Assembly (NCBI GenBank): GCA_014803485.1
Contig: JAAVBQ010000015.1
Coordinates: 8,393-44,083, forward strand
Direction: 5' to 3'
DNA length: 35,691 nt
Source of the DNA: a bacterium
Lineage (GTDB): Bacteria > Bacteroidota > Bacteroidia > Bacteroidales > P3
In this document: in pieces, positions 5,879 through 31,083 of the stretch
Layout: every line of letters begins with the position of its first letter
Position numbering within the stretch: the first letter of the stretch is position 1
Notes under the pieces: generated by a model
The model's database searches: none
What the model was told of the DNA's origin: nothing
What the model saw: the letters and a program-made list of their open reading frames with translations, nothing else
Translations under genes and position numbers: made by a program

Positions 5879-6706
5879 ATGAACCCTATGATTACGGATT
5901 CCGTCGGGGCCCTGGACACCGCCGCAGGCACGGCGGCTGTCGACACGCCCGAGTTTTTATTTCCTTTCGATGCCCGCCGTTTTCTTCCCATCAAATACTG
6001 GGAAGTGCAGGACCGGCCGCGCGAAAAATTCCTTTCCGGCAAGATGCAGGAAATGAGTAACGAAGAATTACTCGCCATTCTTATCGGCTCGGGCAACGGC
6101 CTGCTTTCGGCGGTGGACATCGCCAAAGAGATGCTCGCCCATTTCGGGGGCAATCTTATGGATTTGAGCCGCCGCTCGCCCAAGGAACTGGCGCGCAAAT
6201 TCAAAGGTATCGGCCAGACCAAGGCCATCACCATTCTGGCGGGCCTCGAATTGGGAAAGCGCAGTTTTGAGATTCCCGCCGGCGAAGAAACGCTTATTTC
6301 CTCCAGTCACAAAGCCTTTCAGGTGCTTTACACCGATTTAGCCTCCTCTCCCTACGAGAAATTCATTGTGCTTCTATTGGCGCAATCGGGAAAACTGATT
6401 CGGAAGGTTCTGATAAGCGAGGGCGGTTTGACCTCCACCACCGTCGATGCCAAAAAAATCTTCAAGTTCGCCATCGACGAACACGCCTGCGGCATTGTTC
6501 TCGGCCACAACCACCCCAGCGGCAACCTCAAACCCAGCCCCGAAGACATCAACATCACCCAAAAGCTTGTCGAGGGCGCGCGCCTGCTCGACCTGCACAT
6601 CTTCGACCACCTCATCGTATGCGGAAAATCCTACTACAGTTTTTCCGACCACGACCTGCTCGGCGACCGAAGCCGCTTCGACCCCTACCGACTGGTGATG
6701 AAGTGA
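5879..6706 (+). CDS. radC: RadC-family JAMM/MPN+ domain protein
   Basis: The core matches RadC: an N-terminal block YWEVQDRPREKF followed by LSNEELLAILIGSG-like sequence, a helix-hairpin-helix segment FKGIGQTKAITI, and a C-terminal MPN+ metalloprotease-like domain with HNHPSGNLKPSPED (the HxH...S...D metal site). Despite the historic name, RadC has no proven repair role; the fold suggests a zinc-dependent hydrolase or nuclease. The track ORF starts at 5678 inside the upstream permease gene; that part reads as out-of-frame permease sequence. The ATG at 5879 (MNPMITDSV) or the next one at 5888 is more plausible. Even so the protein keeps an unusual extension of about 35 residues, rich in Ala, Thr and Asp, before the conserved domain. 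The 3' end overlaps the convergent response-regulator gene by 22 nt. Confidence 0.87.
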   Translation: MNPMITDSVGALDTAAGTAAVDTPEFLFPFDARRFLPIKYWEVQDRPREKFLSGKMQEMSNEELLAILIGSGNGLLSAVDIAKEMLAHFGGNLMDLSRRSPKELARKFKGIGQTKAITILAGLELGKRSFEIPAGEETLISSSHKAFQVLYTDLASSPYEKFIVLLLAQSGKLIRKVLISEGGLTSTTVDAKKIFKFAIDEHACGIVLGHNHPSGNLKPSPEDINITQKLVEGARLLDLHIFDHLIVCGKSYYSFSDHDLLGDRSRFDPYRLVMK

Positions 6707-7368
6707 GAATAAGAGCGGCCGACGGGAAGTGTCTTGTCGTTGATGAGCTTGACCGACTGCCGGTTATAACATTTGATTTTGTCGGATGCCACCATTAAGG
6801 ATTTATGAATCCGGATAAAAATATGGGCGTCGAATCGGTCACAAAACCATTTTAGGGAATTACGGGCCAATATCATTTCCCCATCTGTAAGATAAATTTT
6901 TGTGTAGTTCCCCATCGCCTCCATATAGAGGATTTCGGAAATCCGGATGGGGACATTGGCATATTCCTGCCTAACAACGATGGTTTTCTTTACGTCGGCC
7001 AAGCGGGTATATTCCAGACGGCGCACCGATTTTTCGACGGCGGATACAAACCTGTCATAGGAAAACGGTTTGTGAAGAAAATCGAAAGCGTCTAGATTAA
7101 ATCCCGCCAAAGCGTATTCCGCATATGCGGTAGTGAAGATGAATCCTATATCTTTGGGCATCTTTTGAGCAATCTGAAGGCCGCTGACATCGTTCATCTC
7201 TATATCAAGAAATACAAGATCCGGTCTTGTGGCGACAATAGCTTCAAAACCTTTATCCGGATCGCTGAAAACAGAAAGTTCAATTCCACCCAAACGATTG
7301 CAGAATCTACTGATTACCTCAAGCGCAATCGGTTCGTCGTCTATGGCAATGGCTCTTATCTTGCTCAT
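6685..7368 (-). CDS. LytTR-family response regulator
   Basis: A DNA-binding response regulator of 227 residues. The receiver domain (1-120) has the acidic pocket DDEP at 10-12, the phospho-acceptor Asp55 in LVFLDIEM, and Lys100 in FLHKPF. The C-terminal half (about 130-227) is a LytTR domain with ISEILYMEAMGNYTKIYL and IRIHKSLMV. Its start overlaps the stop of the sensor kinase gene (ATGA), so the two are co-translated. LytTR regulators bind pairs of direct repeats upstream of target promoters. The obvious target is the divergent RND/SusCD operon, and autoregulation is possible; this is inferred from position only. The tail overlaps radC by 22 nt in convergent orientation. Confidence 0.92.
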   Translation of the reverse strand: MSKIRAIAIDDEPIALEVISRFCNRLGGIELSVFSDPDKGFEAIVATRPDLVFLDIEMNDVSGLQIAQKMPKDIGFIFTTAYAEYALAGFNLDAFDFLHKPFSYDRFVSAVEKSVRRLEYTRLADVKKTIVVRQEYANVPIRISEILYMEAMGNYTKIYLTDGEMILARNSLKWFCDRFDAHIFIRIHKSLMVASDKIKCYNRQSVKLINDKTLPVGRSYSHFITSR

Positions 7369-8372
7369 AGATCACGAATCTCAAGGTTGACACTGAAGCG
7401 ATTGTTTCTGTCGCTTATATCAAGTGTATAGCGGTTGGCATACATCAAATCAAGACGTGCCCGGGTGTTTTCAAGTCCGACGGAAATTTCTTCTTTCCTT
7501 TCCTGTTTCATTATATCGTTTGTACATAGAAAGGTCAACTTCCTGGCTTTGACAGAAATTGAAATATCAATCAAGCAGTTAGTTGTTGAAGAAACTCCAT
7601 ATTTAAACGCATTCTCCACAAACGAAATAAAAAGCATGGGAGGAACCTGAACCGTATCGTCGTCAATCTCGAAATTGTAGTTGACAACCGTATGCTGATT
7701 TAATCTAAGTCGTTGTAATTCTATATAGTTTTGAATGTAGGCCGTCTCCGTCTTTATGGCAATCTTATCGGTATTGACGTGATAATATGTATACTTCAAC
7801 AGTTCCGTGAAATACATAAAGGCTGTTTCGGCTTTATCCGACTTGCTCACTACAAGACCATAAAGCGTGTTCATGGTATTGAAGAAAAAGTGTGGATTTA
7901 TCTGTGCCTTATAAAGCGCAAGCTCTGCCTGTTGTTTTTCGCTTTCCAACTTCTTTTTTTCAAAAGCAGCCTGAAACAATTCGATAAGCAAAGAAACGGA
8001 AAGACTATATCCTCCCACAACGAGAAACATAAAGCAAACGGTCTGTCGCCTCAAGATTCTACGCATATTCGGGCAACTTGTGTTCTGAATTTCATAGCCA
8101 GGAGGATAAGGAAATTGAGAGAGAAGATAGGCCGCGCCTATTATCACCACCACAAACACGCCGATTTGAACATACTTTCGCTGCATCGCTTTGCGTGGTA
8201 TATTCATTTTCCTTATGGCAAAATAAACGACATAAAGAGAAAGAAACAGCGTGCACGCGAATAAAGGATACCGGACAAGCCATTTTTCCACCGGAACCAT
8301 TGAGATAATCAGCGGCAGGAAAATCAAGCAAAAGAGAAGGTCGATATATAGCGCTATCCTTTGTATATTCAT
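7365..8372 (-). CDS. LytS/YehU-type sensor histidine kinase
   Basis: Inner-membrane sensor of 335 residues. Four hydrophobic segments (about 8-27, 35-53, 67-85, 111-134) are joined by short loops, with no large periplasmic sensing domain, so the signal is probably sensed in or near the membrane. A short coiled linker (FEKKKLESEKQQAEL) leads to the His_kinase motif QINPHFFFNTMNTLYGLV with phospho-acceptor His161. A reduced ATPase domain follows with N-box FVENAFKYG near 252-259. This architecture is the usual partner of LytTR regulators in Bacteroidota. It is divergent from the efflux operon across 134 nt. A promoter-like sequence ends only a few bases before this ATG (see findings), so either the message is almost leaderless or the real start lies further in. 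Confidence 0.92.
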   Translation of the reverse strand: MNIQRIALYIDLLFCLIFLPLIISMVPVEKWLVRYPLFACTLFLSLYVVYFAIRKMNIPRKAMQRKYVQIGVFVVVIIGAAYLLSQFPYPPGYEIQNTSCPNMRRILRRQTVCFMFLVVGGYSLSVSLLIELFQAAFEKKKLESEKQQAELALYKAQINPHFFFNTMNTLYGLVVSKSDKAETAFMYFTELLKYTYYHVNTDKIAIKTETAYIQNYIELQRLRLNQHTVVNYNFEIDDDTVQVPPMLFISFVENAFKYGVSSTTNCLIDISISVKARKLTFLCTNDIMKQERKEEISVGLENTRARLDLMYANRYTLDISDRNNRFSVNLEIRDL

Positions 8373-8376
8373 GATG

Positions 8377-8407
8377 CAAGGTTAATACTTTATCGGGAAT
8401 AGGCAAA
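8377..8407 (-). promoter_or_regulatory. Candidate promoter for the sensor kinase/response regulator pair
   Basis: On the minus strand TTTG (8404-8407) is followed after 19 nt by TAACCTTG (8377-8384), one base from the TAnnTTTG consensus. Transcription would begin close to the annotated ATG at 8372, leaving almost no leader. Confidence 0.4.
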
Positions 8408-8455
8408 ATGTTGTCCTGTCGTTCATCATCATATTCCGTCATTGGTCAATACTTT

Positions 8456-8486
8456 TTTGTGTAATATCGACGATGGTGTATCTTTA
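8456..8486 (+). promoter_or_regulatory. Candidate promoter of the RND/SusCD operon
   Basis: TTTG (8456-8459), 19 nt, then TATCTTTA (8479-8486), one base from TAnnTTTG. A small symmetric element ATTGGTCAAT sits directly upstream of the TTTG. The preceding stretch, with CGTTCATC and CGTCATTG as imperfect direct repeats, is where a LytTR regulator would be expected to bind. Predicted start near 8492 gives a leader of about 15 nt with an AGAGG ribosome site before the ATG at 8507. Confidence 0.5.
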
Positions 8487-8506
8487 TCTAAAAATACAAG
8501 AGGGTG

Positions 8507-9613
8507 ATGAAGAAAATTCATTTGTTAATACCTGTTCTACTGTTGGTTGCCTGCTCGTGCAGAAAACAGGCACCCCAGCAGAACCTTGTTGTCGGTTATC
8601 CCGTTGAAATCATAAAAACAACCGATGTGGTGCTCAACACGCACTATGCGGCTACCGTTACCGGATGCCAAACCGTGGAGATACGTCCGCAGATAGACGG
8701 AATGCTCACTAAAATCTGTCTGCGCGAGGGGGCTCCGGTAAGAAAAGGGCAGGTATTGTTCGAGATTGACCCGGCACAGTTCCAGGCGGCCTATGATATT
8801 GCCCAGGCCAATGTCAACAGTGCCGAGGCGGCCGTTTCCACCGCGCAACTTGTGCTCAACAGCAATAAGGAACTGTATGAAGAAGAAGTAATTTCGGATT
8901 TTGAACTCAACATGGCGGAAAACGAACTGGCCGAAGCCAAAGCCAAATACAAACTGGCCCGCGCCGAACTCGAAAAAGCCTCCACCAACCTTTCTTATAC
9001 CTTGGTTAAGTCTCCCGTGAACGGAATTGCCAGCATGATACCCTACCGCGTGGGAGCCCTGGTGAGCAGCAATATCATAGAGCCTTTGGTGACGGTGAGC
9101 GACGACGGCGAAGTGTATGCCTACTTCTCCTTGGCCGAAAATCAGATATTGGAACTGATTGCCCAATACGGATCCATGAAGAAGGCCATTGCCGAAATGC
9201 CGGAAGTGGAATTCAATATGATTAACGGAGAAACCTATCCCTTAAAAGGCCGTATAGACGCCATAAGCGGCACCATCAACAGCACTACGGGCGCTATCAA
9301 CCTCCGTGCCGTTTTCCCCAATCCCAAACGTATCCTGCACGACGGCGGCACCGGTTCGGTGGTGATTCCGTCGGTCTACACCAACTGCATGGTTATTCCA
9401 CAGAGCGCAACATACGAATTACAAAACAAAGTGTTTGTTTATAAAGTTGTGGACGGGAAAGCCTCTTCCACCGAAATCAAAATCGCTTCCAACAATAATG
9501 GAAGGGAGTATGTGGTGATTGACGGATTAAGCATCGGCGACACGATTGTTTCCGAAGGGGCAGGCTTATTGAGAGAAGGCACGGTAATAACATCAAAGAC
9601 GCAGAGCAAATGA
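8507..9613 (+). CDS. RND efflux periplasmic adaptor lipoprotein (AcrA/MexA type)
   Basis: Membrane fusion protein of 368 residues that links the inner-membrane RND pump to the outer-membrane channel. A lipoprotein signal peptide ends in LLLVAC with the lipidated cysteine at 16. The first lipoyl half (VEIRPQIDGMLTKICLREGAPVRKGQ) is followed by a helical hairpin rich in Ala and Glu (about 80-155), the second lipoyl half (LVKSPVNGIASMIPYRVG), a beta-barrel and a membrane-proximal domain. The track begins at a GTG (8504); the ATG at 8507 directly after AGAGGGTG fits better. It is the first gene of a five-gene unit and overlaps the pump gene by 4 nt. Confidence 0.93.
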   Translation: MKKIHLLIPVLLLVACSCRKQAPQQNLVVGYPVEIIKTTDVVLNTHYAATVTGCQTVEIRPQIDGMLTKICLREGAPVRKGQVLFEIDPAQFQAAYDIAQANVNSAEAAVSTAQLVLNSNKELYEEEVISDFELNMAENELAEAKAKYKLARAELEKASTNLSYTLVKSPVNGIASMIPYRVGALVSSNIIEPLVTVSDDGEVYAYFSLAENQILELIAQYGSMKKAIAEMPEVEFNMINGETYPLKGRIDAISGTINSTTGAINLRAVFPNPKRILHDGGTGSVVIPSVYTNCMVIPQSATYELQNKVFVYKVVDGKASSTEIKIASNNNGREYVVIDGLSIGDTIVSEGAGLLREGTVITSKTQSK

Positions 9614-12600
9614 CAATCAAGACATTTATAGATCGTCCCATTCTTTCGTGTGTGATCTCGGTAGCCATTGTGCTCTTGGGATTGCTTTCCTTGGTGGGAC
9701 TGCCCGTTGAGCAATTTCCCGAAATCGCGCCCCCGACCATCAATGTTTCGGCCTCTTATGCGGGTGCCAATGCCGAAACCGTGCAGAAGAGCGTGATTGT
9801 GCCTATCGAAGAAGCCATCAACGGTGTGGAGGATATGCTCTACATGGTCTCTTCGGCAACCAATACCGGAAACGCCACCATACAGGTATATTTCAAGCAG
9901 GGAACCGACGGCGACATAGCCATGGTGAATGTGCAGAACCGCCTTGCCTCCGCACAAGGCCTTTTGCCAGGAGAAGTCACCAAGAGCGGCATCAATGTAC
10001 TCAAACGTCAGACTTCCAACATCAAGATGCTTGCCCTCTATAGTCCGAACGGTGCCTTTGACCAAAAGTTCATCACCAATTATATAAAAATCAACATCGA
10101 ACCGAGGCTGTCGCGTATTGCAGGTGTCGGGGAAGTTTCTATAAGAGGAGCCGACTACTCGTTGCGCGTATGGCTCGATCCCGGAAAAATGGCACAGTAT
10201 GGGCTGGTGCCGGCGGATATACGGGCCGTTCTTGAGCAACAGAATCTGGAGTCGCCCACCGGTACGCTCGGCGCCGAGTCGGAAAACACATTCCGCTATA
10301 CGCTCAAATACCGGGGCCGCTATGAAAATGAGAGCGATTTCGAAAACCTCGTCATACGGGCTTTACCTAACGGTTCCATCTTGTGCCTGAAAGATGTGGC
10401 GAAGATTGAACTCGGGTCGAAAACCTACGAATATATAGGCTCGGTCAACGGCAAACCCGGCACTCTCTGCTTGATTTCGCAGACGGCCGGTTCCAATGCG
10501 AACACCATCATCGAAGCTATCGACAAGGAAGTCGAAAACATCAGAAAGAGCCTGCCCAAAGGTATGGAACTCGTGGATCTGATGAGCACCAAAGACTTTC
10601 TCGACGCTTCGATTCATCAAGTGCTCCGTACCCTTTTCGAAGCCATTCTTCTGGTTGTGCTCGTGGTCTACATCTTCCTCCAGAGCTTCAAAGCCACCGT
10701 TATCCCCACGGCTTCCATCGTTGTATCGTTGATAGGCACCTTCATCTTCCTCCATATCGCCGGATTCAGCCTCAACCTCATTACCCTGTTCGCTCTCGTG
10801 CTGGTTATCGGCACGGTGGTGGACGATGCGATTGTAGTGGTGGAGGCCGTGCAGGCAAAATTCGACGAAGGGGTCAGGTCTCCCTACGAAGCCACGGTAA
10901 AAGGTATGAACGGAATCTCGGCCGCCTTGCTCACCACCACTATAGTTTTTATGGCGGTATTCATTCCTGTGAGCTTTATGGGGGGAACGACCGGCACTTT
11001 TTATGCACAGTTCGGTCTGACTATGGCGGTGGCGGTGGGTATCTCGCTTCTGAACGCCATGACCCTGAGCCCGGCATTGTGCGCGCTGATTATGTCTCCG
11101 CACGATATGGAGGGGAAAAACAGCTTCTCATCGCGCTTTCACCTTGCCTTTGAAAGCGCTTTCAAACGCATCGTGGGCAAATATACGGAGGGTGTGAAAT
11201 TCATGATTTCTCGGAAGTGGCTTACAGCTCTTCTGTTGGTGGTGGCCTGCGGAGGTCTGGGTTATATGATGATGACGACCAAAACCGGTCTGGTTCCCCA
11301 GGAAGATATGGGAAACATCAATATCGATGTACAGACACCTGCAGGCACCAATCTTGGCGAAACCATGAAAATCATGGAGGAAATAGACCGCAGGATAGCC
11401 GACATTCCCCAGATAAAGGTTTTCTCCAAGACGGCCGGAACGGGCATGATGAGCGGTACAGGTCCGTCGTGCGGTATGTTCAACATCAGGCTGAAAGACT
11501 GGAAAGAACGCAAGGGCAAAGGGGATGACATCAACTCTGTAATCGATGAAATCTATCGCCGGACCGCCGACATCACCGGAGCCAAAATAATCGTATTCAC
11601 ACGGAATATGATTCCGGGTTACGGGGTCAGCAATGGCTTTGAAATTCATGTCCAGGACCAGAAAGGCGGCAATATCGAAGACCTGAAACAGATTACCAAC
11701 AACATCATTGCCGAATTGGGCAAACGTCCCGAAATAGCGCGGGCTTCCACATCGTTCGACACAAAATATCCGCAGTATCTTGTTGAAGTGGATGCTGCCA
11801 ATGCCCTCCGCCACGGGGTTCAACCCGGCGATGTACTCGATGCCCTTTCGGGTTATATCGGTGGAACCTACGCCTCCAACATCAACCGTTTCTCCAAATT
11901 ATACCGTGTTATGGTGCAGGCTTCCCCGGAGTTCAGGCTCGACACCAAGGCTTTGTCCAATATATTCGTAAGGAATGCTTCCGGAGACATGAGCCCTATC
12001 AGTCAATACCTCAAACTCAAACGTATCTACGGGGCACAGACGCTTTCCCGATTCAATCTGTTTTCTTCCATTCAGGTGAACGGAACGCCGGCTGCCGGCT
12101 ACAGTTCCGGAGAAGCCATCAAGGCGGTGCGTGAGGTGTGCGCGGAGTTTCTGCCCGCCGGCTATGGCTATGAATTCGGCGGCATGAGCCGCGAGGAAGC
12201 CTCGTCTGGCAAATCCACGGCTTTTATTTTTGTGGTCTGCATCGTATTCATCTATCTTATACTTTGCGCTCTCTACGAAAGCCTTTTCATTCCGTGGGCG
12301 GTTTTGCTGTCCGTGCCGTTCGGTTTGGCCGGCAGCTTTCTTTTTGCACGGATGTTCGGACTCGAAAACAACATCTATCTTCAGATTGGTCTGCTCATGC
12401 TTATCGGTCTGCTTGCAAAAACCGCAATCCTCATGACGGAATATGCTTCGGAACGGCGCAAATCGGGGATGTCGATAGTCGAATCTGTGATATCGGCCGC
12501 TCAAGCGCGTCTGAGGCCTATTCTGATGACCTCTCTTTCCATGATTTTCGGTCTGATACCCTTGGTGTTCGCCACCGGCGTCGGTGCCAACGGCAATATC

Positions 12601-12729
12601 TCCATCGGGGTCGGTACGGTGGGAGGTATGTTGGTCGGCACCATTGCGCTGTTGTTCATAGTTCCCGTGCTGTTTATCGTATTCCAGACGCTTGAAGAAC
12701 GCGTGATGCCTAAAAGAGAAAAGAAATGA
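9610..12729 (+). CDS. RND multidrug efflux pump, HAE1/AcrB type
   Basis: Proton-driven inner-membrane transporter of 1039 residues, the usual AcrB length. Features seen: the N-terminal start FIDRPILSCVISVAI with LVGLPVEQFPEIAPPTI, the TM4 proton-relay pair Asp405-Asp406 in GTVVDDAIVVVEAV, and LIGLLAKTAILMTEYA in TM10 with the relay lysine near 937. Two large periplasmic portions (about 35-335 and 560-865) follow the standard duplicated plan. AcrB-type pumps export hydrophobic drugs, bile acids or dyes rather than metals; no CusA-type metal relay was seen. The substrate is unknown. It is translationally coupled on both sides (ATGA with the adaptor, ATGA with the channel). Confidence 0.95.
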   Translation: MTIKTFIDRPILSCVISVAIVLLGLLSLVGLPVEQFPEIAPPTINVSASYAGANAETVQKSVIVPIEEAINGVEDMLYMVSSATNTGNATIQVYFKQGTDGDIAMVNVQNRLASAQGLLPGEVTKSGINVLKRQTSNIKMLALYSPNGAFDQKFITNYIKINIEPRLSRIAGVGEVSIRGADYSLRVWLDPGKMAQYGLVPADIRAVLEQQNLESPTGTLGAESENTFRYTLKYRGRYENESDFENLVIRALPNGSILCLKDVAKIELGSKTYEYIGSVNGKPGTLCLISQTAGSNANTIIEAIDKEVENIRKSLPKGMELVDLMSTKDFLDASIHQVLRTLFEAILLVVLVVYIFLQSFKATVIPTASIVVSLIGTFIFLHIAGFSLNLITLFALVLVIGTVVDDAIVVVEAVQAKFDEGVRSPYEATVKGMNGISAALLTTTIVFMAVFIPVSFMGGTTGTFYAQFGLTMAVAVGISLLNAMTLSPALCALIMSPHDMEGKNSFSSRFHLAFESAFKRIVGKYTEGVKFMISRKWLTALLLVVACGGLGYMMMTTKTGLVPQEDMGNINIDVQTPAGTNLGETMKIMEEIDRRIADIPQIKVFSKTAGTGMMSGTGPSCGMFNIRLKDWKERKGKGDDINSVIDEIYRRTADITGAKIIVFTRNMIPGYGVSNGFEIHVQDQKGGNIEDLKQITNNIIAELGKRPEIARASTSFDTKYPQYLVEVDAANALRHGVQPGDVLDALSGYIGGTYASNINRFSKLYRVMVQASPEFRLDTKALSNIFVRNASGDMSPISQYLKLKRIYGAQTLSRFNLFSSIQVNGTPAAGYSSGEAIKAVREVCAEFLPAGYGYEFGGMSREEASSGKSTAFIFVVCIVFIYLILCALYESLFIPWAVLLSVPFGLAGSFLFARMFGLENNIYLQIGLLMLIGLLAKTAILMTEYASERRKSGMSIVESVISAAQARLRPILMTSLSMIFGLIPLVFATGVGANGNISIGVGTVGGMLVGTIALLFIVPVLFIVFQTLEERVMPKREKK

Positions 12730-14075
12730 AATCAAGAATATATCTTTTGATTTTGCCTGCCGTTCTGTTGTTGCATTCCTGTGGTCTGTACCGGAACTAT
12801 AACACACCGGCCGTGGAATACGATACGGAAGTTCTATGTTCCCGGGATACCGCTTCTCAATCTGTTGCCTCCCTGTCTTGGAGGGAATTGTTTACCGACA
12901 GTCTCTTGGTGGAGTTGATTGACAGCGCACTTATCAGGAACACCGACTTGCGCATGGCCCAGCTCAAGACTAAAGAAGCGGCGGCCACACTCACCGCCTC
13001 GCGTCTGGCCTTCCTCCCCTCGTTCAGCCTCAAGGCGGAAGGCGGTATATCCAACACTTCTCCGGCCAATTTCACAATTGCCCCCTCCGCTTCGTGGGAA
13101 ATTGACATCTTTGGAAAACAACGCAATCTCAAAGAGGGGGCGAAGGCGGCCTTTTATGCATCCGAAGCCTATCGTCAGGTCGTGCACACACAGTTGATTG
13201 CAACCGTAGCCAGCAGTTATTTTACGTTGTTGATGCTCGATGAGCAACTCTCCATCAGTGAACGAACCCTGAAAACATGGGACGAAAACATCCGGGCGCT
13301 TCAGGCTCTCAAACGCGCCGGCCGCACCAACGAAGCCATTGTGTTGCAGGCACGGGCAAACCGTACAGCCGTTGAAAACTCGGTTCTCTCGCTACGCAAC
13401 CGCATCTATGTTCAGGAAAACGCCATCAGATCTCTGCTACTCTCACCCGATTGGGAAATCGAACGCGGTTCTCTGAACGAACAGATCTTTCCTGACTCGC
13501 TTACAGAGGGAATTCCTCTCGAATATCTATCGAAACGGCCCGATGTAAGAGAAGCGGAATTCCTGTTGGAAAACGCCTTTTACAACGTCAATGTGGCACG
13601 GGCGGCATTCTATCCGACACTTACCCTCTCGGGACTTATCGGTTGGACAACCTCGGCAGGAAATGTCGCCAACCCTTCGTCGTGGATTGGAAACGCACTG
13701 GGCGCGGTTGTAGCACCTCTTTTCAATCGCGGCACCAACAAAGCCAATCTTAAAATCGCGCAATCGGAATACGAAATCGCATTTCTCAACTTTCAGCAGA
13801 AGCTGTTTGATGCAGGAATGGAGGTGAACGACGCCCTCTCGGCATGGCAGACCTCAAAAAACCGTGTGAATCTCGATAAAAAGCAGATTGCGGCATTGCA
13901 AGGTGCCGTCCATAATACCCGCCTGCTGATGCGCAACTCCACCACAAACTATCTTGAGGTGCTTATTGCGCAACAGAGATTATTGGAGGCCGAACTTACC
14001 GAAGCCAGCGACCGGTTTGAGGTAATCCAGGCCATCATCAATTTGTATCGTTCTCTTGGTGGAGGAACAGAATAA
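12726..14075 (+). CDS. RND outer-membrane factor lipoprotein (OprM/NodT type)
   Basis: TolC-fold outer-membrane channel of 449 residues. The signal peptide ends in the lipobox LLHSC (Cys19). The N-terminal part has WRELFTDSLLVELIDSAL and the typical NTDLRMAQLKTKEAAATL helix start. The second repeat has the YLSKRPDVREAE motif characteristic of the NodT/OprM subfamily and VNVARAAFYPTLTLSG. It completes a tripartite exporter with the two preceding genes. Its stop overlaps the next start by one base (TAATG), an unusually direct coupling to a SusC gene. Confidence 0.93.
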   Translation: MKSRIYLLILPAVLLLHSCGLYRNYNTPAVEYDTEVLCSRDTASQSVASLSWRELFTDSLLVELIDSALIRNTDLRMAQLKTKEAAATLTASRLAFLPSFSLKAEGGISNTSPANFTIAPSASWEIDIFGKQRNLKEGAKAAFYASEAYRQVVHTQLIATVASSYFTLLMLDEQLSISERTLKTWDENIRALQALKRAGRTNEAIVLQARANRTAVENSVLSLRNRIYVQENAIRSLLLSPDWEIERGSLNEQIFPDSLTEGIPLEYLSKRPDVREAEFLLENAFYNVNVARAAFYPTLTLSGLIGWTTSAGNVANPSSWIGNALGAVVAPLFNRGTNKANLKIAQSEYEIAFLNFQQKLFDAGMEVNDALSAWQTSKNRVNLDKKQIAALQGAVHNTRLLMRNSTTNYLEVLIAQQRLLEAELTEASDRFEVIQAIINLYRSLGGGTE

Positions 14076-17000
14076 TGAAGAGGCCTCTTACCTTGCTTGT
14101 CTTTTGCCTTGTATCGGTTTTCGGCCTCCATGCCGCTGTGCCGAACGATACGAGTACCAGAACCGTCACCGGTTTTGTAACGGATCGCAAGGGAGAACCC
14201 CTTATAGGAGCCACTGTTCAGTTTAAAAACGATTTACAAAAGGGCACGACAACCAATATAGACGGACTGTTTATCCTTTCGGATGTGCCCGCCACCTGTC
14301 TACTTCGGGTGTCCTATACCGGTTTCATTCCCATGGATGTGGAAATCACACCCGATAAGGACGAATATGACATTTCGATGAGTATGAAGAGTTCCATGCT
14401 CAACGAAGTGGTAGTGGTTGGTTATGCAACCCAGAAAAAGGCCAATTTAACCGGAGCGGTCTCATCCATAAGTACCGGCACACTCGACGACCGCCCCCTC
14501 TCGAATGTCACCAATGCCCTCGCCGGTTTGGCTTCCGGTCTCACCGTCACCAATGCCGGAGGCAACACTCCGGGATTTGAGGCTCAAAGCATCACTATCC
14601 GCGGTCTGGGAACCATGAACGATGCGGCGCCGCTGGTAGTGGTCGACGGCATGACCGGTATTTCTTTGAGCGACATCAATCCCCAGGATATCGCCGATAT
14701 ATCCATTCTCAAAGACGCCGCCTCTGCGGCCATCTATGGTTCACGCGCCGCCAACGGGGTCATCCTCGTTACGACACGTCAGGGATCCGAACGGAAGCCG
14801 CGCATCACATACAGCGGCAATGTGGCTTTCGAGACCGTGGCGAAACGCCTTCATCTCGTCACCGACTATGCCGAATTCATGGAAATTCAGAATGCAGGCC
14901 TCATAGCCAACGGCCAGGCGCCCCGTTTTTCGCAGAGCAAGATAGATGAATGGCGAAACGACGGAGGAAAGAACCCGACCATTTATCCCAATACCGACTG
15001 GCAGGACCATATCTACCGCAATTCGTCGGTGGTGCAGAATCATAATCTTTCGGTAAGCGGAGCCAACAAAACCGTAAATTACAATATCTCCTTAGGTTTC
15101 GTGAATAATCCGGGGATGATTTATTATACCGATTACCAGCGTTATCAGTTCCGTACCAATATCGATGTCAAGATAAAACCATGGCTCAGCATGGGGACCA
15201 ACATTTTCGGATATATGGATATAAACAATCCCTCCTCCGAGAATGCGGCTGCCGGCGGCGATGTTATTTTTGGCTCGGGAGCCTTCAATACGGTGCCGGG
15301 TATGACGCTCTATGACCCTGTAACCGGACTATACGGCGGCATTCAAAATCCCGAGGAAGAAAATGTCAGCAATTTCAATCCATACCGCCGCCAATGGTTC
15401 TACGACACGGATTATCCTACAAAGACCATGCGTGCGGTAATGAATCTTCACGCGCAGTTGATGCCTGTCAAGGGACTTACCATACGGGGAGCGTTTTCCT
15501 ATAATTATTGGGGACGCAACATGGAGCAGCATCTCACCGACCGCGACCTTTACCGTTTTACCTTCGACGGACCGGTGATGATTCGTGAGGGTGTCGTGCG
15601 TACTTATATCCGCCGTTATAATTACAAAAACAATTTCCGTTCTTCCGAACTCACAGCCAATTATAAGTTTGATATAAGCCGCCTCCATGTGGATCTCTTT
15701 GCCGGCATGAGCCAGGAATATAATAAGTATGACCACGATTACTACATCAAATATGATCTCGTAGACCCGTCTCTCGGTTCTCTCGATGCGGCCATGACCA
15801 ACGGGAATATCTCGGGAAACTATAACGAATGGGCCATGCGGTCTTATTTCGGACGCATCAACCTCAACTGGGACGATAAATATCTTTTGGAAGTGAACCT
15901 GCGTGCCGACGGTTCTTCCCGATTCTCTCCCCAACATCGCTGGGGCTATTTCCCTTCGGTTTCGGTGGGATGGCGCATCACCGAAGAGAATTTCATGAAG
16001 AGTACCGCATCATGGCTCAATCAGCTCAAACTCCGCGCCTCCTACGGTTCGTTGGGCAACAACGCCACCACGAGCTATTATATGTATCAGTCTCTTTTCG
16101 CCACGGCCAACTATATTCTCAACGGAACCATAGCCGGAGGTCTTGCGCAGACCGTGCTTGCCAATCCCGACCTTACTTGGGAAAAGACCTATATGGCCAA
16201 CATCGGTCTCGATTTCGCTTTCCTGAACAATCGACTGAGCGGTTCGGTGGATTTGTACAATAAAGACACGAAGGGTATTCTCATTTCGCTGCCCGCTCCC
16301 CTTGAACATGGCACAAGCACGGTGCCCAACCAGAATGCCGGTGCGGTGAACAACAAAGGTTTTGAATTCGATTTGCACTGGAACGACCGAATCGGCAAAG
16401 TCTCTTATATTGTCGGCTTCAATACGGCCTTCGTCACGAATACGGTAACGAAATTTCAAGGAGATGTCTCTTCGATAAACGGAGTTTACAAGACCCAGGA
16501 GGGAAAACCGATAAACCAACTGTATGTTATGTCTGTCGACCGTATCGTGCGCGATCAGGCCGACCTCGACTATGTGCAGTCTCTTGTAGACAAGAATCCG
16601 GATTATTTCGCCACGTATCAGCGACCCGAATTAGGCGACTTCCTCTATCGCGATGCAAACGGTGACGGCAAGCTCGATGCCAACGACCGGGTGGAAATAG
16701 GCCACGGCACACTGCCCCGCCTAACCTACGGAATCAATCTCGGTCTGAGTTGGAACGGCTTTGATTTCAGCGTGTTCTTCCAGGGTACGGGCAACCATCC
16801 GGTCTATTATAACAATCAGGCTTTCCGTTTTGTCACCGTCATGGGACAGTCGTTGATTAAGGACATCACCGACAACGCATGGACACCGGAGAATCCTTAC
16901 GATTCAAAATATCCCATCCTGCGCAATAATGCGAACGAAAAGAACAACATTCCCAGCGATGCCTTCGTTCACAATGCCGCGTATTTCAGGTGTAAGAACA

Positions 17001-17188
17001 TACAGCTCGGCTATACGATACCGAAGAAGATCACAAAGAAATTCTTTGTCGAGATTTTGAAGGTCTACATCAGCATAGACAATCTGTTTACCATAACCTC
17101 TTTCCCGGGGCTCGACCCTGAAGTGGGGGCAACCGTAGGCTATCCCGCCGTGAGACAGTATTCTGTAGGCATCAACGTAACTTTCTGA
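14075..17188 (+). CDS. SusC/RagA-family TonB-dependent outer-membrane transporter
   Basis: Outer-membrane active transporter of 1037 residues. A Sec signal peptide (about 1-22) is followed by a carboxypeptidase-D-like regulatory domain (about 28-105, with VTGFVTDRKGEPLIGATV). Next come the NEVVVVGYATQKK segment characteristic of the family, a plug domain (about 115-225) with the SusC signature ILKDAASAAIYGSRAANGVI, and a 22-stranded barrel ending in an aromatic-terminated strand (VGINVTF). There is no STN domain for an anti-sigma partner, so regulation probably comes from the LytTR pair upstream. It pairs with the SusD gene 3 nt downstream. No glycosidase, lyase or peptidase gene accompanies the pair, so the substrate class (glycan, peptide, chelator or other) cannot be told. 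Confidence 0.95.
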   Translation: MKRPLTLLVFCLVSVFGLHAAVPNDTSTRTVTGFVTDRKGEPLIGATVQFKNDLQKGTTTNIDGLFILSDVPATCLLRVSYTGFIPMDVEITPDKDEYDISMSMKSSMLNEVVVVGYATQKKANLTGAVSSISTGTLDDRPLSNVTNALAGLASGLTVTNAGGNTPGFEAQSITIRGLGTMNDAAPLVVVDGMTGISLSDINPQDIADISILKDAASAAIYGSRAANGVILVTTRQGSERKPRITYSGNVAFETVAKRLHLVTDYAEFMEIQNAGLIANGQAPRFSQSKIDEWRNDGGKNPTIYPNTDWQDHIYRNSSVVQNHNLSVSGANKTVNYNISLGFVNNPGMIYYTDYQRYQFRTNIDVKIKPWLSMGTNIFGYMDINNPSSENAAAGGDVIFGSGAFNTVPGMTLYDPVTGLYGGIQNPEEENVSNFNPYRRQWFYDTDYPTKTMRAVMNLHAQLMPVKGLTIRGAFSYNYWGRNMEQHLTDRDLYRFTFDGPVMIREGVVRTYIRRYNYKNNFRSSELTANYKFDISRLHVDLFAGMSQEYNKYDHDYYIKYDLVDPSLGSLDAAMTNGNISGNYNEWAMRSYFGRINLNWDDKYLLEVNLRADGSSRFSPQHRWGYFPSVSVGWRITEENFMKSTASWLNQLKLRASYGSLGNNATTSYYMYQSLFATANYILNGTIAGGLAQTVLANPDLTWEKTYMANIGLDFAFLNNRLSGSVDLYNKDTKGILISLPAPLEHGTSTVPNQNAGAVNNKGFEFDLHWNDRIGKVSYIVGFNTAFVTNTVTKFQGDVSSINGVYKTQEGKPINQLYVMSVDRIVRDQADLDYVQSLVDKNPDYFATYQRPELGDFLYRDANGDGKLDANDRVEIGHGTLPRLTYGINLGLSWNGFDFSVFFQGTGNHPVYYNNQAFRFVTVMGQSLIKDITDNAWTPENPYDSKYPILRNNANEKNNIPSDAFVHNAAYFRCKNIQLGYTIPKKITKKFFVEILKVYISIDNLFTITSFPGLDPEVGATVGYPAVRQYSVGINVTF

Positions 17189-17191
17189 TTC

Positions 17192-18934
17192 ATGAATATG
17201 AAATCATCATACATCTCCGCGGTACTCTCGATAGCCATTCTGCTTGCCGGTTGCGAGAAACTCGACTATGCACCCGGCGACCAGATGTCGGAACAAACTT
17301 TCTGGAAGACCGAAGACCATGCGCGGCAGGCGGCCGTGGGTATGTATGCCGCCATGAAAGCCGACTGGTGCTTCGGGCTTGAGTTCACTTTCGATATGTG
17401 CAGCGACCTTGCCGACGGCACAACTCCGTGGGCCGACATTTCGCGGGGCACGACTTTCGCTTCCAACAGCAGCGGGGTACAGAACCACTGGCAATATCTT
17501 TACGAACTTGTGCATCGGACCAATACCGTGATTCGCAATGTCAAAGATATGCCCATCCGTCAGGAAACCATCGACCGCGTAACCGGCGAGGCAAAATTTC
17601 TTCGCGCCATGGCCTATTTCCGTATGCTCAACTGCTGGGGCGGTGTGCCGTATTACGATGAAACCTGCGATATCAACAAGGAATTTTCTCATTTGAACGC
17701 TCCTCGCAGTTCGGCTGAAGAAATCCGCAATCATGTGCTCGACGACCTCACCGAAGCCATACGGCTTTTGCCTGTAAAATGGGATGCCGCCGATCTCGGC
17801 CGTGCCACCAAGGGGGCCGCCTACGCCCTGCGCGGAAAAGTATATCTCTTTGACCGCCAATGGGAGAAAGCGAAATCCGACTTAGAGGAAGTGGTTTATA
17901 ACAAGAACCTTAATTATGGCTATTCGCTCCATCCCGACTATAACGAACTGTTCCGCCTCTACAACGGCAACCAAAGCCCCGAAATGATTTTCTCGATACA
18001 GTCCATCGACGGCAACGTGGCAGGATATGCGTTGAATATCGTGGGATATTTCGGCAATAAATCAACGATGCGGCTTATTGCAAGCAATTCCATTGTGCCC
18101 TCCACTACTTTGGTGGATATGTACGAGAACCTTGACGGCAGTCCGTTCGACTGGGACGATATTTTCCCCGGTTTCAACAAAGGAGGTTCGGAAGTCCGTC
18201 GTAACTATATGTGTGTGGTCATCAACCAGGAGAGCACCCAAGTGGTAGACCTGCTTGAATGCGACACCACAAAGGTACTGGATGCCTATCGTCTGCGCGA
18301 CCCGCGGCTTTGCCTAAATGTCATTACGCCTTATTCCCACTACCTCGGCACCGATGCCGGGTCCAACCCGATGGACAAACAGTTTGTTCTTGCCGATGCC
18401 TCGAAGGGCGGTGCACCGATGGAGGCGATGGCGTTCATACGCAATTCCGAGGGCTGGAACTCTTATTTCTGGCGCAAATGGATTCCCACCGGTAATCTCG
18501 ACGGTTACTGGGGAGAATACAACCGCACGCCCTACGAATTTCCATTGATTCGCCTCGGTGATGTAATTCTGATGCTTGCGGAGGCCTATAATGAATGCGG
18601 AGAAACCGATAATGCCATCACGGAAATAAACAAAATCCGCAGTCGTGCGGGAATGCCGGAACTCAACAGCGGCCCCTCGTGGCTTGCAGTGGGCGGCCAG
18701 GAGCAGGTGGCGGAGCGGATACGTCGTGAACGGGCCTTCGAACTGGCTGGCGAAGGGCAGCGTTACTGGGACCTCCGTCGCTGGGGATTGCTCGAAGCTT
18801 CGGTAAAGAATGCCACCGACATATTCGGAGACTTGATGTACACCCGTTCCTATCAGTCGCGCCACGAACTCTGGCCCATTCCGCTGGTGGAGCTGGAAAG
18901 GAACCCCAATCTCACGCAAAACGAAGGTTGGTGA
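17192..18934 (+). CDS. SusD/RagB-family surface nutrient-binding lipoprotein
   Basis: Surface lipoprotein of 580 residues that acts as the lid of the SusC barrel. The lipobox is ILLAGC (Cys21). The early segment SEQTFWKTEDHARQAAVGMYAAM and the TPR-like segment GEAKFLRAMAYFRMLNCWGGVPY are typical. The C-terminal RagB/SusD signature is present (YEFPLIRLGDVILMLAEAYNE, then INKIRSRAGMP, then RRERAFELAGEGQRYWDLRRWG and HELWPIPL). It starts 3 nt after the SusC stop and is the last gene of the unit. Complete; ligand not deducible. Confidence 0.95.
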   Translation: MNMKSSYISAVLSIAILLAGCEKLDYAPGDQMSEQTFWKTEDHARQAAVGMYAAMKADWCFGLEFTFDMCSDLADGTTPWADISRGTTFASNSSGVQNHWQYLYELVHRTNTVIRNVKDMPIRQETIDRVTGEAKFLRAMAYFRMLNCWGGVPYYDETCDINKEFSHLNAPRSSAEEIRNHVLDDLTEAIRLLPVKWDAADLGRATKGAAYALRGKVYLFDRQWEKAKSDLEEVVYNKNLNYGYSLHPDYNELFRLYNGNQSPEMIFSIQSIDGNVAGYALNIVGYFGNKSTMRLIASNSIVPSTTLVDMYENLDGSPFDWDDIFPGFNKGGSEVRRNYMCVVINQESTQVVDLLECDTTKVLDAYRLRDPRLCLNVITPYSHYLGTDAGSNPMDKQFVLADASKGGAPMEAMAFIRNSEGWNSYFWRKWIPTGNLDGYWGEYNRTPYEFPLIRLGDVILMLAEAYNECGETDNAITEINKIRSRAGMPELNSGPSWLAVGGQEQVAERIRRERAFELAGEGQRYWDLRRWGLLEASVKNATDIFGDLMYTRSYQSRHELWPIPLVELERNPNLTQNEGW

Positions 18935-18954
18935 GAGCGTTTTGCTTTAATGTT

Positions 18955-18962
18955 TAACTTTG
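18955..18962 (+). promoter_or_regulatory. -7 promoter element of rlmH
   Basis: TAACTTTG is an exact TAnnTTTG match. A TTG at 18928-18930 is 24 nt upstream, longer than normal, so only the -7 element is well supported. It lies inside the 5' end of the track ORF and argues that translation begins further downstream. Confidence 0.5.
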
Positions 18963-18985
18963 CAGAAAAACGTAAAAGAACGCCC

Positions 18986-26352: not shown

Positions 26353-27261
26353 TTATTGGGCCGAGCGGTATTCGTTGGGAGTCATGCCGGTCTGGTTTTT
26401 GAAGAATTTGTGAAAAGACGGGATGGATTGAAAATGGAGGGAATATCCGATTTCCTTAATCGTAAGGCTCGAATATCGAAGCAGGTTTTTCGCCTCCAAT
26501 ACCAAAAAGGTATCAATCCAGTCGGTGGCGGTCTTCCCGCTGACATTCTTCACCAAGGTTGTCAGATATTTCGGGGTCATATACATCTTTTCGGCATAGA
26601 ACGCAACACTCTTCTCGGTCATGAAATTCTCGGATACAAGCGTGAGGAACTCCTCGTATTTTACCTGCGTGCGCGACCGTACCGGTTTTGAAGTCTGAAG
26701 CTTGGACAATTCTCCGTTCCAGATATTCCCGAGAAGATACATCAAGGAGGTGCCTATGGAACAGATGGCGTCTTCCGTACCGAGGAGATCGGTCTTATAT
26801 AGGTCTGTCACCAAGGTATAGTAGTCCGACAATATGTTTTTTCCCTCTTGGTCTATGGTGATGCAGGGATTGCTCAAAAGTTTGACACTTTGTTCGAAAA
26901 GATCGTTGATCTTAATCAGTCCTCCCTTGAGAAAATCCTTGGTCGCCACCACAAGAATCATCTCGCTGTCTTTAAATTCTTGGTCTTCATCCTCTTTTAT
27001 CTGTATCGTGTTGCCCGGTATGTAGAAAAGCATCATATCCTGATGCACCTGGAACGTGGTTACGTTGATGTCTATGTCAAAATGTCCGCGTGTGCAATAT
27101 ATCGCCGCGTATGCGTTGAGCCGCACGGGATGCCGAAGCGCGAGCACATCTTTCCTGCAAATCTTTGTTATGATGAATTTGTCTGCCATTCTGGTCTTTT
27201 CTGACACGCCTGTCATCTTTGCCAGTTGGGTTATGTCTATCTCATAATAAGGTCCTGTCAT
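26353..27261 (-). CDS. AraC-family transcriptional regulator
   Basis: A 302-residue regulator. Residues about 40-130 form a cupin-like sensing domain (LNAYAAIYCTRGHFDIDINVTTFQVHQDMMLFYIPG). The C-terminal domain (about 205-302) carries two helix-turn-helix units: MTEKSVAFYAEKMYMTPKYLTTLVKNVSGKTATDWI and LTIKEIGYSLHFQSIPSFHKFFKNQTGMTPNEYR, the second close to the AraC signature. It is divergent from the TolC/HlyD/ABC-2 export operon across 166 nt of DNA rich in symmetric motifs, so local control of that operon is likely. The inducer cannot be predicted. Confidence 0.92.
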   Translation of the reverse strand: MTGPYYEIDITQLAKMTGVSEKTRMADKFIITKICRKDVLALRHPVRLNAYAAIYCTRGHFDIDINVTTFQVHQDMMLFYIPGNTIQIKEDEDQEFKDSEMILVVATKDFLKGGLIKINDLFEQSVKLLSNPCITIDQEGKNILSDYYTLVTDLYKTDLLGTEDAICSIGTSLMYLLGNIWNGELSKLQTSKPVRSRTQVKYEEFLTLVSENFMTEKSVAFYAEKMYMTPKYLTTLVKNVSGKTATDWIDTFLVLEAKNLLRYSSLTIKEIGYSLHFQSIPSFHKFFKNQTGMTPNEYRSAQ

Positions 27262-27309
27262 AATGTCTCCCTCTTAGGTGTCGTAAAAATAGCGATTATT
27301 TCCATTCTG

Positions 27310-27423
27310 ATTATCCATATTTCTATAAATAGGAATAATGGATAATATTCAAAGAGTTTTAAATATCCATAAGTCTGAAATTGGACTGAAATTTGTGACA
27401 ACGGATAGCAAACAAATATGGAT
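27310..27423. promoter_or_regulatory. Candidate AraC-regulator operator array
   Basis: TATCCAT elements recur in alternating orientation: TATCCAT at 27312-27318, ATGGATA at 27338-27344, TATCCAT at 27364-27370 and ATGGAT at 27418-27423. The first three start exactly 26 nt apart and the fourth 54 nt further. The first two are part of a perfect 9-bp inverted repeat ATTATCCAT/ATGGATAAT (27310-27346). They lie in the divergent region between the regulator and the export operon. No convincing TAnnTTTG element was found for the operon, in keeping with an activator-dependent promoter. Confidence 0.6.
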
Positions 27424-27427
27424 TTTT

Positions 27428-28930
27428 ATGAAGAGAAGAGTTTTGATCACGGTGGCCGCGTTGCTTCCCTTTCTTCTACAGGCTCAGCAAAGACTGACCC
27501 TGGAGGATTGTCGGCAGATGGCGATTGACGGCAACAGGGAACTGAACCAGAGCGCCATTGAAATACAGATGGCGACTTATGACAGGGGCATCGCACGAGC
27601 CAATTATTTTCCGCAAATCAGTGCCAAGGCCGCCTATCTGTACAACAATCATGATATCAACCTCATCGGCGACGAAGCCTCGCAACTTCTGCAAAACGGC
27701 GGAACACTCATTCAGGGGCAGTTGACAGGAAAAATGAATGAACTGACGCAGGCCATCATGTCGAACCCTGCGGCCGCGCAGGAATTCATGGCAAGCCCGA
27801 TGTGGCAGACCATGTTCGGCGCGCTTTCCAATATGGATGTTTCCGGGGCCATCAACTACATAGGTTCCCAAATCGACGAGGCCCTTCATCTCGATATACA
27901 CAATGTGTATATGGGAGTGTTCAGCGTCACGCAACCTCTGTTTGCAGGCGGAAAAATCATCGCCGCCAACAAGATTGCCGCCTTGGCGGAGCAACTGGCC
28001 AAGGATAAATATGACACAAAGTATCAGCAGGTTATTGTCGGCATAGATCAGTCTTACTGGCAGATTGTGGCCATAGCGGCGAAGAAGGAACTTGCAGAAA
28101 GCTACATGGGTCTGCTCAATAAGATGGTAAGCGATGTCAATGCCTTGGTGGCGGAGGGTGTCGCTACGGAATCCGATCTTCTGAGCGTGAAGGTCAAGGC
28201 CAACGAGGCTGCCGGTATGCTGCTCAAGGCCACCAACGGGTTAGCTCTTGCCAAAATGTTGCTCTGTAAAGAAATAGGTCTTCCTCTCGACAGCGAAATC
28301 ATGCTTGCCGACGAAGGAGGGGAAAAGGTGCCGGTGCCTGAATTTATGGAGGTAAAGACCATGGATGAAATATGGGAGGACCGTCCGGAAATCAAAAGCC
28401 TGGATATCGCTGCCGAAATCTACGCCAACAAGGTGAAGGTTGTACGGGCCGATATGTTGCCCACCATAGCCGCCACGGCCAATTATCTGGTCAGCAACCC
28501 CAACGTGAACGGCGGTTTCAGAAATGAATTCGGCGGACGCTTCTCGGCGGGCGTGATGATGAACGTTCCGATATTCCACGGCTTTGAGGCGGCCTACAAG
28601 ACTCGGAAGGCCAAGGCCGAAGCGCAGCTCTACAGAAGCAAACTGGAGGATGCCAAGGAAATGGTCTGCCTCGAAGTATCCAAATATACGAATGAGCGGA
28701 GCGAGGCTTTGGAAAGTCTGCTGATGGCCGAATCCAATCTGGAGAGTGCGGAAGAAAACCTGCGGACCGCAACGATAGGGTTCGAAGAGGGCATTGTAGA
28801 CGCCAATACGGCTATGGCCGCCCAGACGGCCTGGCTCAAGGCGCATTCGGAATATATAGAATCGGGCATCGCGTTGCAGATGGCATCCGTCAACCTGCAG
28901 AAAGCGCAAGGCAATATAAAGGAATTATAA
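27428..28930 (+). CDS. TolC-family outer-membrane channel protein
   Basis: A 500-residue outer-membrane efflux protein. A Sec signal peptide ends at LLQAQ, and the mature part begins QRLTLEDCRQMAIDGNRELNQSAIEI, the usual opening of Bacteroidota TolC proteins. Two helical repeats follow, with VTQPLFAGGKIIAANKIA in the first half and VMMNVPIFHGFEAAYKTRKAKAEAQL in the second; the GG/FHG-type strands mark the channel barrel. The track ORF starts at 27338, but that N-terminal part is operator DNA; the ATG at 27428 (MKRRVLITVAALLPFLL) gives the signal peptide. First gene of the operon; 21 nt separate it from the HlyD-like gene. Confidence 0.92.
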   Translation: MKRRVLITVAALLPFLLQAQQRLTLEDCRQMAIDGNRELNQSAIEIQMATYDRGIARANYFPQISAKAAYLYNNHDINLIGDEASQLLQNGGTLIQGQLTGKMNELTQAIMSNPAAAQEFMASPMWQTMFGALSNMDVSGAINYIGSQIDEALHLDIHNVYMGVFSVTQPLFAGGKIIAANKIAALAEQLAKDKYDTKYQQVIVGIDQSYWQIVAIAAKKELAESYMGLLNKMVSDVNALVAEGVATESDLLSVKVKANEAAGMLLKATNGLALAKMLLCKEIGLPLDSEIMLADEGGEKVPVPEFMEVKTMDEIWEDRPEIKSLDIAAEIYANKVKVVRADMLPTIAATANYLVSNPNVNGGFRNEFGGRFSAGVMMNVPIFHGFEAAYKTRKAKAEAQLYRSKLEDAKEMVCLEVSKYTNERSEALESLLMAESNLESAEENLRTATIGFEEGIVDANTAMAAQTAWLKAHSEYIESGIALQMASVNLQKAQGNIKEL

Positions 28931-28951
28931 AGATTAAAAGAACTTAATGAT

Positions 28952-29932
28952 ATGGAACGAAAAAGAAACAGTCTGGCCGCTGGAATCATAGGCCTTGTAG
29001 TTGTTATTGTCATCATCGGCATTATCGGATTTTTTGTCTCGAAACCCAAACCTGCGGTGGTTTGCGGAGAGGCCGAGGCGAACGAATACCGTGTTTCCGG
29101 CAAAGTGCCCGGCAGAATCGAGGAACTGTATGTGAAAGAAGGCGATTTTGTACACAAAGGGGATACGGTTGTGTTCATCAACTCGCCCGAAGTGATGGCC
29201 AAACTTGCGCAGGTGAGCGCCCTGAAGGCCGCCGCCGTGGCGCAGAGCAGAAAAGCGGAAAACGGTGCGCAAAAAGAGATGATAGAGGGGGCCTACCAGT
29301 TGTGGCAGACGGCGCTCGTGCAGGAAGAAGTGATGAAAAAATCCTTCGAAAGAATCCGCAAACTGTATGATGAAAAAGTAGTGACCGCCCAGAAATACGA
29401 CGAGGTAAAAGCGAAATACGATGCGTCCGTGGCACAGGAAAAAGCTGCGAAGAGCCAATACGATTTGGCACTTGCCGGGGCCCGTTCGGAAGACAAGGCG
29501 GCGGCCGCTGCGGTGGTAAACCAGGCCGAAGGCGCCTTGATGGAGGTGCAGGGCTATCTTGCCGAACTGTATCTGGTTGCTCCCTGCGACGGCATCGTGT
29601 CCGCCATCTATCCGAAAGAAGGGGAACTTGTGGGACAGGGTGCCCCTATCATGAGCATTATGGATATGAATGATGTCTGGTTTACGTTCAATGTCCGCGA
29701 GGACAAGCTTCACGGTATCAAAAGAGGCGATATCCTGACGCTTTCGGTGCCCGCGCTCGATGGAGAGACCATCCGTGCGAAAGTGACCTATATGGCCGCC
29801 AGAGAGTCTTATGCCACGTGGCGTGCCACGAAAGACACCGATTCATACGATGCTAAAACATTTGAAGTGAGAGCAGTACCCGAATCGAAAACCGAGGGTC
29901 TGCTTCCGGGAATGACAGTGCTTGTGAAATGA
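28952..29932 (+). CDS. HlyD/EmrA-like membrane fusion protein
   Basis: A 326-residue periplasmic adaptor anchored by one N-terminal membrane helix (about 11-29). A biotinyl-lipoyl-like first half (YRVSGKVPGRIEELYVKEGDFVHKGD) is followed by a long alpha-hairpin (about 85-190, rich in Ala, Lys, Glu) and the second half (LYLVAPCDGIVSAIYPKEGELVGQG), then a beta-barrel (DVWFTFNVREDKLHGIKRGD). This is the YbhG/EmrA-type adaptor seen with ABC-2 permease pairs. It bridges the TolC-like channel and the two permeases; its stop overlaps the first permease start (ATGA). Confidence 0.92.
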   Translation: MERKRNSLAAGIIGLVVVIVIIGIIGFFVSKPKPAVVCGEAEANEYRVSGKVPGRIEELYVKEGDFVHKGDTVVFINSPEVMAKLAQVSALKAAAVAQSRKAENGAQKEMIEGAYQLWQTALVQEEVMKKSFERIRKLYDEKVVTAQKYDEVKAKYDASVAQEKAAKSQYDLALAGARSEDKAAAAAVVNQAEGALMEVQGYLAELYLVAPCDGIVSAIYPKEGELVGQGAPIMSIMDMNDVWFTFNVREDKLHGIKRGDILTLSVPALDGETIRAKVTYMAARESYATWRATKDTDSYDAKTFEVRAVPESKTEGLLPGMTVLVK

Positions 29933-31080: not shown

Positions 31081-31083
31081 GAA

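Follow-up and report, generated by a model that had tools for sequence, protein, structure and literature searches.

A SusC–SusD importer pair joined to an RND efflux operon beside a divergent LytTR two-component system in the Bacteroidales

Introduction

Among the Bacteroidaceae, an inducible tripartite RND pump that requires a neighboring regulator has been described in P. vulgatus (BVU_1673-1675, with the putative regulator BVU_1672; PMC12694919). Here, we analyze a 35,691-nucleotide stretch of DNA from a gut-type member of the Bacteroidales (the window) in which the genes for such a three-part exporter run directly into a SusC–SusD (SusCD) pair. Our literature searches returned no publication that describes this linkage or places SusCD pairs under a LytTR system of the efflux type. 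The window derives from one assembly, representing one strain of the species, that is 77% complete and comprises 57 contigs.

Results

Using Pfam and NCBIfam profiles to assign gene families, we identified five consecutive plus-strand genes: an RND periplasmic adaptor (8507..9613; TIGR01730, 235 bits; RND_mfp/HlyD), an RND pump of the AcrB/MexB/CmeB type (9610..12729; ACR_tran, 983 bits), a NodT/TolC-type outer-membrane channel (12726..14075; TIGR01845, 241 bits; outer_NodT/OEP), SusC (14075..17188; TIGR04056 SusC/RagA, 911 bits) and a SusD lipoprotein (17192..18934; SusD_RagB, 163 bits). The open reading frame tool starts the adaptor at GTG 8504; ATG 8507 is the likelier start. Adaptor and pump, and again pump and channel, meet in ATGA overlaps, channel and SusC share a TAATG overlap, and SusC and SusD are separated by a 3-nt gap. 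Direct reading of the reading frames and junctions confirmed the preliminary description, which had reported this five-gene linkage with a divergent LytTR pair, for every gene and junction and at the same positions. Because the genes overlap, a single transcript is predicted to extend from the adaptor to SusD. The next gene, rlmH, carries its own promoter-like sequence, and the operon therefore most likely ends with SusD. At the other end, the 3' end of the regulator gene overlaps radC by 22 nt.

With an adaptor, an AcrB-type permease and an outer-membrane channel in one operon, the exporter is a tripartite RND system of the HAE-1 class, whose predicted function is proton-driven export of drugs or lipophiles; the closest solved relatives of the pump are CmeB and MexB. 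The importer has the hallmarks of SusC/SusD (RagA/RagB): a TonB-linked barrel of family TIGR04056 that includes a plug and a carboxypeptidase-regulatory domain, and after it a SusD-family lipoprotein. The locus does not qualify as a polysaccharide utilization locus (PUL), as no carbohydrate-active enzyme or PUL regulator occurs among the neighboring genes checked. The earlier remark that glycan- or peptide-degrading enzymes and a sigma/anti-sigma pair are missing was likewise borne out among the genes checked around the operon. GC content does not separate SusCD (50-53%) from its neighbors (48-55%). A second efflux-type operon lies at 26353-32846 of the window, with an AraC-type regulator divergent to a channel gene, a probable adaptor, one or more ABC-2 membrane proteins and an outer-membrane barrel.

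Divergent from the adaptor, on the minus strand, are genes for a PF06580 histidine kinase (7365..8372; Pfam His_kinase and family alignment) and a LytTR response regulator (6685..7368; Pfam Response_reg and LytTR). The kinase N terminus contains four hydrophobic segments, and we found no recognized sensory domain in the protein, a combination that suggests sensing within the membrane. The kinase had previously been called LytS-type; this label fits its PF06580 kinase domain and does not extend to the N terminus, which offers only the hydrophobic segments. The two genes (6685-8372) are clearly AT-richer than their neighbors, at 40% GC for the kinase and 45% for the regulator.

Upstream of the adaptor is a LytTR tandem operator (8421..8453, plus strand) composed of GTTCATCATCATA (8421-8433) and ATTGGTCAATACT (8441-8453) at a spacing of 20, and the -7 promoter element TATCTTTA (8479..8486, plus strand) is found 25 nt past it. 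None of 3977 background stretches or 4000 shuffles scored as high as this operator, and with a position weight matrix built without the window it was equaled by 0 of 1000 shuffles. A spacing of 21 scored poorly for the window operator, and a spacing of 20 resolves the alignment. Related pump loci share the tandem repeat GTTCGTCA(T/C)CACA with half-sites 21 bp apart and a -7 box 25-26 nt beyond the operator. The pump operator was recovered independently in nine new loci (0/1000 shuffles, matrix without the window); L250 and L252 gave no match to the pump-operator matrix, probably because the start codons chosen shortened their intergenic stretches. As judged from sequence, the PF06580 kinase, the LytTR regulator and the tandem repeats at the target promoter together make up a LytTR two-component system (TCS) of the adjacent operon, in which the regulator is predicted to bind and activate the pump promoter. 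In some pump loci, a second LytTR-like tandem repeat is present beyond the channel gene (L108, 14440-14910; L009 and L010, after 14520). In two of these loci, L108 and L010, the repeat is followed by a gene for a secreted protein of ~105 aa (PepSY-like in L108), which is likely another member of the LytTR regulon.

The nearest relatives of the pump comprised 80 loci when one genome per species was searched, and 91 loci were screened once congeners were added. In 54 of these loci the channel gene is present with 1.5 kb or more of sequence past its end, and SusC was the next gene on the same strand in 0 of the 54. Of forty further loci from across the phylum, one (L220, in G638) has a SusC–SusD pair following the channel; this pair is unrelated to that of the window (SusC 23% identical) and lies 556 nt away. 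A coupled SusCD pair thus follows the pump in 0 of 94 related pump loci. The preliminary description had staked its proposal on the five-gene order recurring in related genomes, and none has it. A conserved five-gene operon is ruled out by this absence, together with that of SusD from the window's own family. This kinase family occurs in 15 genomes of an order-wide sample of 393 Bacteroidales. The TCS is divergent from a pump in 11 of these and from a lipoprotein–SusCD unit in two, one has too little flanking DNA, and the window alone has both pump and SusCD with the TCS. By gene order, TCS and pump are a conserved unit, and the pump–SusCD arrangement is present in no other genome that we examined.

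The SusD ortholog has a different distribution. The 189 other genomes examined from the window's family all lack it, whereas 33 of the 198 from another Bacteroidales family (f26) carry it, as do 1 of 250 f9 genomes and one f79 genome. We fetched 20 SusCD loci from f26; a divergent TCS is present in 17, a coiled-coil lipoprotein gene separates TCS and SusC in most, and no genes conserved downstream of SusD were found. By the same measure of gene order, the divergent TCS, lipoprotein, SusC and SusD are a conserved unit in f26. The lipoprotein (L170, 7694-8554; L172, 10942-11796; L186-L203) is ~285-300 aa long, matches no Pfam family and is conserved in f26. An operator of the LytTR tandem kind is also found upstream of the lipoprotein gene, the half-site in SusCD loci being GTTTATTGACACA. 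When a matrix trained on these stretches was applied to the DNA preceding SusC, 11 of 13 f26-type loci gave a match (10 at 0/1000 shuffles and one at 1/1000), mostly with a -7 box 26 nt after it. No such operator precedes the window SusC.

Phylogenetic analysis places the SusCD pair of the window within f26 (99/96 on the starred branch), and monophyly of f26 without the window is rejected (p-AU 9.7e-5). In the TCS tree, 18 SusCD-linked systems form one clade (100/100) with the window outside, branching close to its base; neither grouping the window with the pump-type clade nor grouping it with the SusCD-type clade is rejected. The window kinase and regulator sit on a long branch of this tree. 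Relative to f26 SusCD-linked loci, the window SusD is 78-85% identical, whereas identity between the kinases reaches only 38-43%; when f26 loci whose SusD proteins are about as similar are compared with one another, their kinases are 45-80% identical (mean 54-62%). The SusCD tree, the TCS tree and the divergence of the kinase together indicate that SusCD most likely arrived by horizontal transfer without the donor TCS. Two results disfavor transfer of the TCS together with SusCD: the kinases are too divergent, and the window falls outside the clade of SusCD-linked TCS. The dN/dS values are ~0.04-0.06 for SusC and SusD (versus L187), and on these values and their reading frames both genes are intact and strongly constrained.

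Neighbors of SusCD homologs provide information regarding cargo. An ortholog in G306 adjoins sigma/FecR genes and GH38, GH92 and GH2 enzymes, and more distant homologs adjoin sulfatases and heparinase-like lyases. By analogy with these neighborhoods, the SusCD cargo is probably glycan-derived.

Sister species record the history of the site. G009 has an empty site: downstream of radC come genes for a cupin and an HxlR-type regulator and then rlmH, with nothing of the segment that runs from the LytTR regulator to SusD in the window. The window retains a 26-bp remnant of the cupin/HxlR intergenic region just before rlmH (18940..18965, plus strand; 96% match to G009, L151). Arrival of the entire segment on a mobile element is not favored: the G009 site shows that cupin–HxlR was replaced, but among the genes examined we noted no sign of an integrase, a transposase or flanking repeats. 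In G004 (L005, 7306-13831), the pump lies between an AI-2E transporter gene and radC with no TCS, operator or SusCD adjoining. The G004 pump is 97% identical to that of the window, and at the DNA level the pump is 92% identical and neighboring core genes 90%; this equal divergence indicates a pump native to the window lineage. The letters that follow the channel stop in G004, TAACGGAGAGGCCT, resemble those of the window, TAATGAAGAGGCCT, a weak hint that the pump–SusC junction may be older than the split between the two.

Discussion

We consider it fairly probable that a native RND operon under a divergent kinase/LytTR pair gained an f26 SusC–SusD pair at its 3' end, and that pump and importer are co-induced. 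The evidence for this is read from DNA: the gene junctions, the unit of TCS and pump, the f26 unit of TCS, lipoprotein, SusC and SusD, the operators and the nesting of SusCD within f26. Judged by the trees and operators, the two halves of the operon have different histories, each under LytTR control separately, and their joining is real and specific to this lineage. Since the nearest relatives of SusCD are under a sister sensor and the pump operon is under its own, exporter and importer are probably switched on together.

In the mechanism we propose, the intramembrane-sensing kinase would detect an envelope or lipophilic signal and phosphorylate the LytTR regulator, which would bind the tandem repeat at 8421-8453 and activate the promoter at 8479. 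One message of ~10.4 kb would then yield pump and importer through coupled translation. On joining the pump operon, SusCD would have lost its own LytTR operator and promoter but remained controlled by a member of the same broader regulator family, which would have kept its induction by a related cue. The two transport systems need not handle the same molecule, and co-induction is no proof that the arrangement benefits the cell. Against this account stand the spacing of the window operator, 20 rather than 21 bp, a TCS compatible with either the pump-type or the SusCD-type clade, and the single incomplete assembly. Of the meanings suggested earlier, co-induction by one envelope signal gains support from the conserved tandem operator at the promoter and from f26, where the TCS belongs to a sister clade and SusC is preceded by an operator of the same type. 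Conserved export and recapture, and conserved exchange of a toxic nutrient, are left unsupported, as the five-gene order occurs in no related genome.

SusCD could instead have landed behind the pump by chance and be transcribed by read-through, with the shared LytTR ancestry coincidental and the junction without physiological meaning. The uniqueness of the five-gene order to this genome is consistent with such an origin, as is the relocation of the pump in sister G004, which marks the region as unstable. However, SusC and SusD are intact under strong constraint, the TAATG coupling is exact, and in the family from which SusCD came the pair is driven by a sister TCS through promoters built in the same way, an association expected for few SusCD pairs by chance. 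We regard a meaningless junction as unlikely, though it deserves serious consideration. We give far less credence to the proposal that SusCD takes back up a chelator, signal or nutrient released through the pump. The predicted co-transcription in this genome would suit it, but in all the other genomes examined the two modules are apart, we saw no biosynthesis gene, and the enzymes beside SusCD homologs (GH38, GH92 and GH2, or sulfatases and heparinase-like lyases) point to glycans.

Two further accounts concern how the order arose. The near-basal position of the window TCS relative to the SusCD-linked clade might suggest that TCS, pump and SusCD together represent the ancestral order, the f26 locus being a descendant that lost the pump. 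This is very improbable given that the window SusCD is nested inside f26, is absent from the window's own family and is far nearer to f26 than the window kinase is. An assembly error joining two organisms at the channel–SusC junction might be suspected of a single, incomplete, 57-contig assembly with foreign SusCD genes, yet that junction is an exact stop–start overlap, native DNA with the native-site remnant resumes 5 nt past the SusD stop, and G004 keeps GAGGCCT after its channel stop, matching the first SusC codons. We therefore find an artefact hardly credible.

A broader speculation is offered tentatively and with considerable doubt. One clade of intramembrane kinases and LytTR regulators may sense a single kind of envelope cue in Bacteroidales and command either a drug-type exporter or a SusCD importer; the window would join both and have been kept as the cue calls for both. 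Host glycolipids, for example, might be such a cue, the glycan being food and the lipid toxic. The analysis delimits a regulon open to testing, marked by two 13-bp half-sites at a distance of 21 bp and placed 25-26 nt before a -7 box, that would link efflux and SusCD uptake in gut Bacteroidales. It also suggests how an importer pair passed from one bacterial family to another can retain its type of regulation, namely by coming to lie under a sister of its former regulator.

Comparison with known systems

The closest counterparts of the window are Bacteroidales loci in which a TCS is divergent from adaptor, RND pump and channel (for example L083 of Phocaeicola sp., L010 of Bacteroides muris, L246 and L247). 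They share its divergent kinase/LytTR pair, the order of the three pump genes, the tandem operator and the -7 spacing, but lack SusC/SusD, and L108, L009 and L010 differ further in having an operator-like repeat after the channel gene. The f26 loci (L170, L186-L205) resemble the other half of the operon, with SusC/SusD ~70-86% identical to those of the window, a divergent TCS of the sister clade and the same operator architecture. Unlike the window, they have the coiled-coil lipoprotein in place of a pump, and their SusC usually has its own operator. With canonical Sus-type PULs, in one of which the G306 ortholog lies, the window shares the SusC–SusD pair; it differs in lacking an enzyme, a surface lipoprotein and a sigma/anti-sigma pair and in using the promoter of an efflux operon. 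P. vulgatus BVU_1673-1675, by its published description, is similarly an inducible tripartite RND pump that needs a neighboring regulator, whereas no SusCD is described there (PMC12694919).
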